DNA of 64,000 bases from Rhodocyclaceae bacterium (GTDB lineage: Bacteria > Pseudomonadota > Gammaproteobacteria > Burkholderiales > Rhodocyclaceae), in contig JAUXXJ010000045.1 of assembly GCA_030681195.1 (NCBI GenBank), forward strand, positions 310,001 to 374,000, written 5' to 3'. Shown in pieces: positions 2,133 through 6,082 of the stretch. Numbering within the stretch: position 1 is the stretch's first letter; each line of letters opens with the position of its first letter. A program made the position numbers and the translations under genes. The notes beneath the pieces are model-generated. The model was not told the DNA's origin. It saw only the letters and a program-made list of their open reading frames with translations, and did not search any database.

Positions 2133-3176
2133 CTATTCCTCATCCGGGTCGCGGAACTGATCGCGCACCGCGATCACCGCTTTCTGGACAGCGAGGAAGG
2201 CATCCGTGCAAACGGGATCAAAATGCGTCCCGCGACCTTCGGCAATAAAGGCCCAAGCCCTGTCGAGTTCCCATGCCGCTTTGTAGGGACGTGCCGAGGT
2301 CAGGGCATCGAAGACATCGGCAATGGCCACGATGCGGCCGAACAGGGGAATCTGCTCGCCGGCCAGGCCGCGCGGATAACCGCTGCCATCGTATTTTTCA
2401 TGGTGGGTATGGGCGATCTCGGCGGCCACCTGCAGCGTCGGGGCGGCTGAGCCCTTGAGAATTTCCCAGCCAATGGTTGCATGCTGCTTCATCACAGCAA
2501 ACTCTTCCGGCGTCAGCTTGCCGGGCTTGAGCAGGATCATGTCCGGCGTGCCGAGCTTGCCGACATCGTGCATCGGGGCGGCTTCGAGGATCAGATCCTG
2601 TTGTGCCCGATCCAGGCCGAGCTGGGCAGCAATCAGCTTCGAGTAGTGGGCCATGCGCTGGATATGCGCGCCGGTCTCGGGATCGCGGAACTCAGCCGCG
2701 CGCGCCAGTCGGAACACGGCCTCGCGTTCTCTTTCGCGAATCTCCGCCGTCGCCTTGCCCACTTCTTCGGCCAGCCAGGCGGCACGGTCGGTAAGCGCCA
2801 GATGGCTCCTGCGGATGGCCAGCATGTTCTTCACCCGCGAGGTAAATTCGATGCGGTCGACCGGCTTGGTGAGGAAATCATTGGCGCCAGTCTCCAGCGC
2901 GCGGTAGCGTACTTCCTTCTCGTGGTCGGCGGTCACCATCAGGATCGGCAGCTCCGCCTTGTCTGGTTCGGCGCGCAGGCGCTGGATGAATTCGATGCCA
3001 TCGGGCGCCGGCATCATATAGTCGACGATGACCAGATCCGGCTGGTTGGTCAGGCACCAGGCCAGTCCGGCGGCCGAGTCGGTGAAGCAGACTGGTTTGC
3101 AGCCGTCGATGCGATTGACCAGCGCCTGCATCAAGGTGACATTGATCTGGGTGTCATCGACAATGACGACGTTCAT
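2133..3176 (-). CDS. Response regulator with HD-GYP domain, predicted cyclic-di-GMP phosphodiesterase
   Basis: 347 residues. Residues 1-120 form a receiver domain with acidic pocket D7-D8, phospho-acceptor D52, T82 and K104. A helical linker (about 125-155) precedes an HD-GYP domain with HD at 203-204, HTHHEKYDGSGYP at 256-268 and the full GYP signature. HD-GYP enzymes hydrolyse cyclic di-GMP, so this is probably a phosphorylation-controlled phosphodiesterase. It sits 14 bases downstream of the cyclase-hemerythrin gene on the same strand and is likely co-transcribed. No histidine kinase is nearby. Confidence 0.9.
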   Translation of the reverse strand: MNVVIVDDTQINVTLMQALVNRIDGCKPVCFTDSAAGLAWCLTNQPDLVIVDYMMPAPDGIEFIQRLRAEPDKAELPILMVTADHEKEVRYRALETGANDFLTKPVDRIEFTSRVKNMLAIRRSHLALTDRAAWLAEEVGKATAEIREREREAVFRLARAAEFRDPETGAHIQRMAHYSKLIAAQLGLDRAQQDLILEAAPMHDVGKLGTPDMILLKPGKLTPEEFAVMKQHATIGWEILKGSAAPTLQVAAEIAHTHHEKYDGSGYPRGLAGEQIPLFGRIVAIADVFDALTSARPYKAAWELDRAWAFIAEGRGTHFDPVCTDAFLAVQKAVIAVRDQFRDPDEE

Positions 3177-3190
3177 AAAAACTCCTTTTC

Positions 3191-4636
3191 TTAACGCAGC
3201 TGGTCCGCCTTGACCCGCTCGGACAGGAAGCGTTCGAGGTGGCGGTCGGTGATGCTGATGTGGCTGATAAACCAGTCGAGCAACAGGAACTGGCTGCGGA
3301 AGGCGAGGCGCAGGGCGGGGGTCTTGCCATCATGAATGCCCGCCGCCAGACTTTCGAGGAACTCACGGAATTTTTGGTGCTGCTGACGGTGTTCGAGAAA
3401 AGGCGAACGCGGGTAGCCATGTGCTTCCATCATGCGTTCTTCGGATTCGAAATGTTCGCGCGTCCATTCCACCAGCTTGACAACGATCTGGCTGGCCGTG
3501 CCGGCCTGCTCTTCCTGCAGGGCATTCGCCAGCGAAACAATGTGGCTGAAAATGACCTGGTGCATATCGTCGAGGCCGGCAAAGCCGAGCAGGTATTCGG
3601 GACGCCAGTGGGTGGCACTATCCGTCTCGCCGGCCTCGCCGGTATGGGCGCGGTTGGCCTGGCGGCAACGCTGCCAATACACGGCGGCGGGCGTATCGCC
3701 CGGGTTCTGTTCGAGACAGTCGCCGAATAGCCCGAGGGCATCTTCCATGCGGCGGAAATGGTAATGTGCCAGCGCGTCCTCGAACGTATCGCGATAAGCC
3801 AGCTTGGCGGCCTTGATCGGCGCCGGATCGGCATCGAAGACCTCGTAGATGGACTGCGCCTGATGTTTGCCGCGCACGCGCACGCGGTCGATAAAACGAA
3901 TCGAAAAATCGGTCGGATGGCGAATGCTGTTGAGCGTGTGCTGGGTGATCAGGATCGGCGTCTGGTAAGTCTTGGTCAAGGTCTCGACGCGCGAGGCGAC
4001 GTTGACCGCATCGCTGATCACCGTCACTTCCATGCGGTTTGCGCCGCCGATGACGCCGAGCATCAGCAGACCGGAGTTCATGCCAATGCCGATCTGTACA
4101 TCGCCGGTCGTACGCCGGTCGGCATGCTCAAGTGGCAGTTCGTTTTGCAATACGGCACGCTGGGCATTGAAATGATTCAGTTCAGCCAGCATGCCGAGGG
4201 CCGCCTTCAGTGCATCATCGCCACGCGCCGGGAACAGGGCCATGACCGAATCGCCAATGTACTTGTCGATGAAGCCGCCGTGCGCCAGCACCACTGGTTC
4301 CATGAAGCTCAGGTAGGCATTGATGAAATCGAAACACTGCTGCGGCGACATGCGTTCCGACATCGAGGCAAAGCCGCGGATGTCGGAAAACAGAATGGTC
4401 ATCTTCTTCTCGGCCTGATGCCCCCAATCGACATCGAGGATACTTTCCTTGCCGAGCAGCTCCAGCAATTGCGGTGGCACAAAGCGCGAATAGGCCGACT
4501 GCAGCTGCACAAGGCGCTGTTCAACGCCCTGACGGGTGGCGACCTCGGCTTCCAAGCGCGCACGCAAACGCCGCAGCTCGTCGTCTGCGTCGCTGGTCAG
4601 TACCGAAGGGTTTGGGGTGATACCTGGGATCGTCAT
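3191..4636 (-). CDS. Class III nucleotidyl cyclase fused to a hemerythrin domain
   Basis: 481 residues. A charged helical N-terminus (15-50) leads to a class III cyclase domain (about 76-265) with both metal aspartates (FSDIRGF, D85; YIGDSVMALF, D129) and the transition-state pair N212 and R216 in DAVNVASR. After a helical linker comes a hemerythrin domain (about 348-475) with ligands H359, H395-x3-E399, H416, H420, H459 and D464. Hemerythrin binds a di-iron centre and O2, so oxygen or NO control of cAMP or cGMP synthesis is an inference. No membrane segment is seen. Adenylate versus guanylate specificity cannot be told by eye. Confidence 0.88.
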   Translation of the reverse strand: MTIPGITPNPSVLTSDADDELRRLRARLEAEVATRQGVEQRLVQLQSAYSRFVPPQLLELLGKESILDVDWGHQAEKKMTILFSDIRGFASMSERMSPQQCFDFINAYLSFMEPVVLAHGGFIDKYIGDSVMALFPARGDDALKAALGMLAELNHFNAQRAVLQNELPLEHADRRTTGDVQIGIGMNSGLLMLGVIGGANRMEVTVISDAVNVASRVETLTKTYQTPILITQHTLNSIRHPTDFSIRFIDRVRVRGKHQAQSIYEVFDADPAPIKAAKLAYRDTFEDALAHYHFRRMEDALGLFGDCLEQNPGDTPAAVYWQRCRQANRAHTGEAGETDSATHWRPEYLLGFAGLDDMHQVIFSHIVSLANALQEEQAGTASQIVVKLVEWTREHFESEERMMEAHGYPRSPFLEHRQQHQKFREFLESLAAGIHDGKTPALRLAFRSQFLLLDWFISHISITDRHLERFLSERVKADQLR

Positions 4637-4706: not shown

Positions 4707-5189
4707 CTAGATCAGGTACGCACGTTCGATGGCGGTTTGCAGGTGGAAGGCGATTTCTTCCATGGTTTCGATGTCCTCAGCACAAAACGTATCACCGGAT
4801 TTCTTGTTAACCGCCTGAATCGCGCCAACCATTTCCGCCCGGAAAACGCTTTTGACCGGGACGCAAAGCATGTTGCGCGTCACAAAGCCGGTGTTTTTCT
4901 CGACCGATTTGTGCGCGCCCTCTTTGGCGCGAAGATTGTCCTCGATGGCCAACTCGCCCGAAGCGATCACTTTACCTACAACCGAATTTTTGGCATCCAC
5001 TTCGATCTGCCGCTCAACCACGCCGGTGCCGCACTTCAGCCAAATCTTGTTGTTCACCGGATCTTTGACAAAAATGCTGCAGCGCTCGACATCCAGCAGC
5101 TTTTCGACGATCCGCACATAGAAACTGAAGAGTCGCTGATCGTTGCTCGAAGTTGCGTTGCCTTGCGCGATTCGATAGTTAGTCATCAT
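4707..5189 (-). CDS. GAF-domain protein
   Basis: About 160 residues, almost wholly one GAF domain: VERCSIFVKDP, then GKVIASGELAIEDN, then VGAIQAVNKK near the C-terminus, a typical GAF core. GAF domains bind small ligands such as cyclic nucleotides or haem, but no output domain is attached. The start is one of two consecutive ATGs at 5189 and 5186; they overlap the upstream stop as ATGATG, so translation is coupled to the membrane protein. It lies 70 bases upstream of the cyclase-hemerythrin gene, and binding of the cyclase product is an attractive but untested idea. Confidence 0.8.
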   Translation of the reverse strand: MMTNYRIAQGNATSSNDQRLFSFYVRIVEKLLDVERCSIFVKDPVNNKIWLKCGTGVVERQIEVDAKNSVVGKVIASGELAIEDNLRAKEGAHKSVEKNTGFVTRNMLCVPVKSVFRAEMVGAIQAVNKKSGDTFCAEDIETMEEIAFHLQTAIERAYLI

Positions 5190-6025
5190 GCATCCGGCCT
5201 TGCTAACTGAGGCCACATAGGAGGAGCAACTGTCATCCCTTTCACCATACCCCACAATATCCAGATGAGAAGCAAAGGCAAGACCAACGTCTGAAGAAGA
5301 AATATCACCATGAGCCTGATGGCGTTTTCGATAGCCTGTTCTGCGGCTTCCTTGAGGCCGGTGAGTTGAGGGCGTATATCCAGATTCTGCGTAGACCACC
5401 CCTTTATCTTGTCCCAAATACTTTTCTCCTGTGCAACTTGTGGCGCAGAGTCATTCATGGAGGGCAACTGGCCAGACACCGTTTCAATACTTTTCTGGCT
5501 AGACATATAGTCATCCGCCATGAACTCATGAAACATCTTGTCGCTACCGATGATGGCAAGCGGCACGGCAAACCGGACCATGATCAGCATGGCCAGTACC
5601 TTGGTGAGCAGGGCGGGCAGCGGTCTTTGACGGAATATGTAATAGGCGCACATTACCGCGATGGCCGTAATCACCAATGACACCATCCAGTAAGCGCCAA
5701 TGCTTATCAGGATTTTCTCGATGCCGAAGGCAATGCTGGCCGCCAACATCAGCTGGGAAAACTGTTCGACAACATCGTTTACCGGGTCAAGTATCTGCCC
5801 GACAGAGAGCTGTACGCCAATCCCCGCTGGCGTTGCTGCAATCTCGGTACCTTGAGCAACCGAGATCACGGCATTCAAGGCGCGGGCGGATGCAAAGCTC
5901 ACCAGGGCGCGTTTGAGACCGGCATCCACATGCTCGGTGGCTGCCTTGTCGAGGGGAATGATCCATGCGCCCATGACAACGAGCCCCAACAAAAGCCCCC
6001 AGACAATTTGGCGTGAATATTTCAT
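5186..6025 (-). CDS. Membrane protein of unknown function
   Basis: I do not recognise this 279-residue protein. The ATG at 6025 is preferred over one 33 bases upstream because GGGAG lies just before it. Hydrophobic segments are seen near the N-terminus (about 8-25), at about 90-150 (two or three helices), at about 160-175 and near the C-terminus (about 240-270). A soluble region with QEKSIWDKIKGW lies between. It overlaps the GAF gene and heads the four-gene minus-strand signalling cluster, so a sensory or transport role for that cluster is possible but not shown. Confidence 0.7.
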   Translation of the reverse strand: MKYSRQIVWGLLLGLVVMGAWIIPLDKAATEHVDAGLKRALVSFASARALNAVISVAQGTEIAATPAGIGVQLSVGQILDPVNDVVEQFSQLMLAASIAFGIEKILISIGAYWMVSLVITAIAVMCAYYIFRQRPLPALLTKVLAMLIMVRFAVPLAIIGSDKMFHEFMADDYMSSQKSIETVSGQLPSMNDSAPQVAQEKSIWDKIKGWSTQNLDIRPQLTGLKEAAEQAIENAIRLMVIFLLQTLVLPLLLIWILWGMVKGMTVAPPMWPQLARPDA

Positions 6026-6082
6026 CGTTCGCTCCCTCACGTTATCGGCCAGCAGCACCCTATACAGAGTACCGCAAAGACA

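Follow-up and report, generated by a model that had tools for sequence, protein, structure and literature searches.

The window, a stretch of 64,000 nucleotides of DNA from a Rhodocyclaceae bacterium, contains a gene in which a class III nucleotidyl cyclase, a helical linker and a hemerythrin domain form one chain. Because a complete cyclase site and a complete diiron ligand set occur together, O2- or redox-controlled cyclic-nucleotide synthesis is the best-supported reading of this protein, and we put the probability that it is a class III adenylate cyclase switched by O2 or redox state through its C-terminal hemerythrin at roughly 60%. In many of its relatives the O2-binding iron seems to be weakened or gone; the window's genus keeps the full site.

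Architecture and conservation of the fusion protein

The gene and its parts are listed below, with the evidence for each in brackets.

3191..4636, minus strand: whole gene, class III cyclase, helical linker and hemerythrin, 481 aa (ORF, Pfam, NCBIfam, AlphaFold2)
4487..4597, minus strand: N-terminal helix, residues 14-50 (AlphaFold2 secondary structure)
3857..4417, minus strand: class III cyclase catalytic domain, residues 74-260 (PF00211, residues, CyaB alignment)
3650..3823, minus strand: helical linker, residues 272-329, four predicted helices (AlphaFold2; without a Pfam match)
3224..3610, minus strand: hemerythrin domain, residues 343-471 (PF01814, TIGR02481, ligand residues, DcrH match)

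The open reading frame is uninterrupted, begins with ATG and occupies exactly the coordinates given by a sequence-only reading, which took it for a fusion of a nucleotidyl cyclase with hemerythrin. Domain scores above the curated cut-offs confirm that assignment: Pfam Guanylate_cyc (PF00211) matches residues 74-260 with 74.5 bits (cut-off 21.9), Pfam Hemerythrin (PF01814) matches residues 354-467 with 32.2 bits (cut-off 25.3), and NCBIfam hemeryth_dom (TIGR02481) matches residues 344-470 with 76.1 bits (cut-off 51.75). The narrower bacteriohemerythrin family NF033749 scores 78.4 bits, below its cut-off of 84, and the window protein is not assigned there. The AlphaFold2 model (mean pLDDT 86.4, pTM 0.82) shows the N-terminal helix, a cyclase fold, the four linker helices and a C-terminal four-helix bundle made of residues 353-374, 378-405, 410-436 and 441-480.

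A full-length match to the 481-residue protein was found in all 19 searched genomes of the window's genus. The pairwise dN/dS there has a median of 0.122 in the cyclase, 0.142 in the linker and 0.182 in the hemerythrin. Both domains are thus under purifying selection in the genus, with the hemerythrin diverging faster (mean identity 71% vs 87% for the cyclase domain). Since the frame is full-length in 19/19 genomes and dN/dS is low in all three parts, it is neither a chance frame nor a pseudogene.

Complete cyclase site and diiron ligand set

The further proposal that all catalytic cyclase residues and all hemerythrin iron ligands lie in one chain holds without exception: 13 of 13 are present, and all are kept in the 19 genus sequences. 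On the cyclase side these are D85, K125, D129, T205, N212 and R216. We take D85 and D129 to be the metal aspartates, N212 and R216 to be the transition-state Asn and Arg, and K125 with T205 to be the ATP-type base-selecting pair (Lys with Thr or Asp). K125 and T205 align with the K and T of Pseudomonas aeruginosa CyaB at the base-selecting positions, and CyaB (3r5g, 85.9 bits) is the closest solved chain to the cyclase by sequence. In a Foldseek search of the PDB with the model, all 50 matches listed are cyclases, with photoactivated adenylyl cyclases and CyaB on top. The catalytic domain resembles those of CyaB and the class IIIb adenylyl cyclases, down to the same K/T pair, and its product is probably cAMP made from ATP.

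On the hemerythrin side the ligands are H359, H395, E399, H416, H420, H459 and D464, which we take to correspond to H25, H54, E58, H73, H77, H106 and D111 in the usual numbering; from hemerythrin crystal structures, we assume that H25 and H54 are the Fe2 pair. The closest solved hemerythrins by sequence are those of DcrH (2awc, 37.7 bits, and 2avk). The ligand motif of hemerythrin sensors is H-HxxxE-HxxxH-HxxxxD; Fe1 is held by three histidines and Fe2 by two, a Glu and an Asp bridge the irons, and O2 binds at Fe2 (PMC9388753, available in part).

The window genome holds 23 matches to cNMP-binding domains, 22 of them above the cut-off, and 11 matches to hemerythrin domains, so possible cAMP receivers are plentiful, as are other hemerythrins. 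Two loci of this genome merit mention in their own right. Another of its cyclases (L005, G000:C52:387854-388531), outside the window, lies directly before a small cNMP-binding protein (L325, G000:C52:388680-388931). A 342-aa open frame (L315/L317, G000:C56:308780-309535) has two hemerythrin-like matches, the second weak (E 0.006), and may encode a tandem hemerythrin-like protein.

Proposed mechanism and comparison with known sensors

Class III cyclases act as homodimers with two active sites. In the mechanism we propose, such a homodimer would make cAMP from ATP, and the hemerythrin domain would carry a diiron centre that O2 oxidises. The change in oxidation state would reach the cyclase dimer by way of residues 343-352, which form the N-terminal loop of the hemerythrin, and of the helical linker. 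By analogy with the Vibrio Bhr-DGC and the Ferrovum Bhr-HD-GYP, low O2 or reducing conditions would raise the level of cAMP, which would then act on the many cNMP-binding proteins of the genome. O2-controlled cyclic-nucleotide synthesis had already been suggested from the sequence; the complete active site and diiron ligand set in one chain favour that suggestion, while the redox switch itself is one that we infer by analogy with characterised hemerythrin sensors.

Those two sensors, Bhr-DGC of Vibrio cholerae and Bhr-HD-GYP of Ferrovum, likewise join hemerythrin to a cyclic-nucleotide enzyme under redox control, and both are more active when reduced (PMC9388753, available in part). According to the same partial source, they differ in acting on c-di-GMP, which their GGDEF or HD-GYP domains make or degrade, and in having the hemerythrin at the N-terminus, whereas the window protein has a class III cyclase with the hemerythrin C-terminal behind a helical linker. 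The chemoreceptor DcrH of Desulfovibrio vulgaris also has a C-terminal hemerythrin (PMC9388753, in the part available), but its output is chemotaxis and it is a membrane protein; the cyclase-hemerythrin protein has no predicted membrane part. In DcrH the N-terminal loop has an ordered structure in the met form and loses it in the deoxy form (again from the available part of PMC9388753). Because the order of this loop follows the redox state in DcrH, and the same loop joins the linker in the window protein, it is by analogy a plausible redox relay to the linker.

The characterised sensors named in the available part of this 2022 review comprise a chemoreceptor, a diguanylate cyclase, an HD-GYP phosphodiesterase and P-type ATPases, acting on chemotaxis, c-di-GMP and metal transport, and do not include a class III cyclase (PMC9388753). 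If our reading is true, the fusion family extends hemerythrin sensing to cAMP. A count of 56 architectures among long O2-binding hemerythrin sequences (PMC4919030, available in part) may already include the cyclase-hemerythrin arrangement. What we describe is thus a known sensor and a known enzyme in a little-studied combination; in the literature that we searched on hemerythrin with nucleotide cyclases and on missing iron ligands, some of it available only in part, we found neither the biochemistry of the fusion nor the loss of Fe2 ligands described.

Distribution of the fusion

Relatives of the window protein number at least 575 in named genomes. Among the best 80 of these at least 575 loci, 12 carry both cyclase and hemerythrin, with BLAST and HMM in agreement. 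Fusion-bearing records are Rhodocyclaceae SKW65, a Rhodocyclales bacterium, two Sterolibacterium, two Nitrosomonadales, Gallionella, Sideroxydans, Ca. Ferrigenium, Thiomargarita, Ca. Parabeggiatoa and one record labelled Syntrophobacterales. By BLAST or HMM, the other 68 of the best 80 have no hemerythrin domain, and 66 of these 68 stop within 60 residues past the linker; the cyclase-plus-linker module without hemerythrin is common to cyanobacteria, spirochaetes and others. The remaining two of the 68, Parabeggiatoa proteins of the cyclase-plus-linker type (L081, L089), have, where the hemerythrin sits in the window protein, a C-terminal part that by eye resembles a response-regulator receiver.

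We also surveyed samples of genomes at E <=1e-80, counting a fusion when the match extends into the hemerythrin part. The counts may be too low, given that scoring covered at most the best 4 candidates per genome in the order and phylum samples, 5 in the window's family, 11 in the family of genome G059 and 6 in the class sample. The fusion was found in 12 of 399 genomes of the order sample (13 match, one with the cyclase only). In the window's family 70 of 297 genomes match, 64 of them with the fusion and six with the cyclase only. In the family of G059 the fusion was found in 73 of 150 genomes, one of these rows having an internal stop. In the phylum sample, 27 of 398 genomes match and 11 have a match reaching the hemerythrin. 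Judging by the named records that fall among these two families in the tree, the window's family is probably Rhodocyclaceae and the family of G059 probably Gallionellaceae. The fusion is therefore a protein family, frequent in two bacterial families and rarer elsewhere. The sequence-only reading had called the coupling of hemerythrin to a class III cyclase less usual. This stands across the class sample, in which eight of 274 genomes match and only the window's own has a match reaching the hemerythrin, and it agrees with the list of characterised sensors given above; at 64/297 and 73/150 in two families, the coupling is not unique.

Repeated loss of Fe2-side histidines

We compared 159 distinct full-length fusion sequences, which remained from 208 ORFs after removal of duplicates. 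All six cyclase residues are complete in 158 of them. The iron ligands are kept far less evenly, a pattern beyond the reach of any single sequence: H25 in 149, H54 in 68, E58 in 148, H73 in 158, H77 in 159, H106 in 158 and D111 in 158, the single fusion without H106 being an alignment gap. At least one Fe2-side histidine is gone in 95/159 fusions, mostly His54 (91), and an Fe1-side histidine in two, one being the gap. A bridging carboxylate is altered in 12 fusions, and the full set of seven ligands is found in 61. H54 is replaced by a range of residues, among them Leu in 28 fusions, Ser in 14, Asp in 13, and Ile and Ala in 7 each. Because an Fe2-side histidine is gone in 95/159, these sequences indicate that O2 binding at Fe2 cannot be the function of the whole fusion family. 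H25 is still there in 85 of the 91 fusions without H54, and Fe2 may on that account be weakened in them rather than absent.

Other hemerythrin domains from genomes of the window's family served as controls. H54 is present in all 76, and the Fe1-side histidines are changed in four; five controls depart from HHEHHHD, though never at H54, and one row is gapped at H25. The 76 domains were drawn from 79 hemerythrin loci: 11 of the window genome, 28 further loci (21 of the 25 genomes searched gave a match) and 40 hand-picked rows (24 long-frame, 16 short-frame). Two cyclase fusions were removed from this set, which mostly lacks low-scoring rows. Fisher p-values take related sequences as independent and so overstate certainty; tree counts are sounder and do not separate gain from loss. 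We read the change at the Fe2 side as loss because the full ligand set is the usual state of the controls. In a tree of the cyclase part, made by a quick method and with several weak branches, the trait changes at least nine times. A FastTree tree with eight distant fusions added, taken from the phylum sample and outside the 159, gives 10 changes for the Fe2-side trait vs one for the Fe1-side histidines (gap counted as kept). Two of the eight distant fusions are intact and six are without H25, H54 or both, while the Fe1 histidines, E58 and D111 are kept in all eight. For dN/dS beyond the genus the ratios are rough, with synonymous sites largely saturated and 1064 of 4095 pairs usable for the hemerythrin part without H54.

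An alignment artefact at His54 is ruled out: the position precedes E58 by four residues within a single helix, the alignment there is free of gaps, and the fusion counts did not change when fusions and controls were aligned jointly by HMM. Only fusions that bear H54 went into the seed of this HMM, yet it recovered 159/159, including the 91 without H54. We also considered whether H391, one turn before residue 395, could be the ligand moved. It is no general replacement, as it is found in 39 of 51 H54-less fusions of the Gallionellaceae type, in five of eight in a small group and in none of 24 in a second large group, with eight of the 91 rows outside all three groups.

H466, two residues past the bridging Asp, is present in 152/159 fusions (61/68 with H54, 91/91 without). 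The controls usually have another residue at this position (Arg in 18, Ala in 17, then others), and seven of the eight distant fusions lack H466. That it couples the hemerythrin to the linker is only a guess. In genus g215, six of nine fusions (L175, L221, L224, L225, L228, L235) have Gln for E58 as well as Ala for H54, which means that a bridging carboxylate is altered too.

What the hemerythrin may sense

The pattern of loss suggests that the chemistry of the hemerythrin sensor has altered in the evolution of the fusion family. It is tempting to speculate that hemerythrin coupled to class III cyclases was repeatedly turned, through loss of Fe2-side histidines, from a diiron O2/redox site into a metal sensor with Fe1 only or with a labile Fe2, placing cAMP synthesis under the control of iron or of a one-iron centre; we hold this idea tentatively, at somewhat worse than even odds. 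A parallel would be BRUTUS and FBXL5, with a hemerythrin-like bundle that can take up iron, give it off again and undergo oxidation by O2 (PMC12022348, available in part). These are eukaryotic E3 ubiquitin ligases, and their likeness to the H54-less relatives is one of possible working principle only.

If the window protein itself worked in this way, loading and unloading of Fe(II), chiefly at a labile Fe2 site, would set cyclase activity and O2 would act only indirectly. The loss of Fe2-side histidines in 95/159 relatives that retain the Fe1 side (two missing) points in this direction, and iron occupancy would suit those with a weakened Fe2 site. Gallionella, Sideroxydans and Ferrigenium are iron oxidisers, and the family to which their named records belong often has the fusion, but so does the window's own family (64/297). 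The hemerythrin-like domains of BRUTUS give up part of their iron on reduction (PMC12022348, in the part available). All seven ligands are nevertheless kept in 19/19 sequences of the window's genus, and for the window protein we consider iron occupancy unlikely, at perhaps a third of the weight that we give to O2 or redox control.

It is more doubtful still that the hemerythrin is a structural or dimerising module, with ligands kept for folding only and the cyclase free of metal control. One histidine ligand is often dispensable in relatives, and for L064, a fusion with neither of the Fe2-side histidines, the model still shows an ordered bundle (mean pLDDT 88.3). Against this, at least 157/159 fusions retain the histidines of the Fe1 side and the bridging Asp, all seven ligands are kept across the genus, and characterised hemerythrin fusions are redox-regulated (PMC9388753, available in part).

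The unequal fate of the two iron sites would let natural variants show which of the irons carries the signal, by comparing the full site with forms in which His54 is replaced or both Fe2-side histidines are gone. As the window's genus keeps the full diiron form, members of the family can be compared as a natural mutant series, with L060 (full set), L061 (H54 to Leu) and L064 (neither Fe2-side histidine) as examples.

Gene neighbourhood

Three neighbouring genes bear on the context of the fusion.

2133..3176, minus strand: response regulator with HD-GYP-type HD domain, neighbour outside the conserved unit (ORF list, Pfam, locus comparison)
4707-5258 (start uncertain), minus strand: GAF protein, between rpoD and the cyclase (Pfam)
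5186-6058, minus strand: upstream protein without a Pfam match, between rpoD and the cyclase (Pfam)

The HD-GYP gene begins 14 nt past the cyclase gene in the window and may be co-transcribed with it. From this neighbour the sequence-only reading had drawn cross-talk between cAMP/cGMP and c-di-GMP. A relative of the HD-GYP protein adjoins the cyclase in four of 18 testable genus loci (the window, L033, L037 and L042; L039 has too little downstream sequence to be counted), and none, at >=40% coverage, was seen near the 17 non-genus loci compared, one of which (L056) is a cyclase without hemerythrin. This makes weak evidence for cross-talk: a partnership with HD-GYP as a general feature is out, and c-di-GMP cross-talk is possible in the window organism and no property of the fusion family.

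Non-haem diiron centres generally react with NO and peroxide. The best NCBIfam match of the adjacent response regulator is nitric_RR_NosR (NF053512, NosR family), but at 139 bits it is far below the cut-off of 400 and the neighbour is not conserved (4/18), and we regard NO or peroxide, rather than O2, as a very improbable physiological signal at the diiron centre.

Upstream, the comparison took in the 17 other genus loci with enough sequence (L045, with 65 bases, was left out), and the GAF protein and the upstream protein were found in none of them. In the window, the cyclase gene lies downstream of dnaG and rpoD with these two genes in between, and the GAF part shares 32% identity, over 136 aa, with a segment of L003, another cyclase protein of the window genome.
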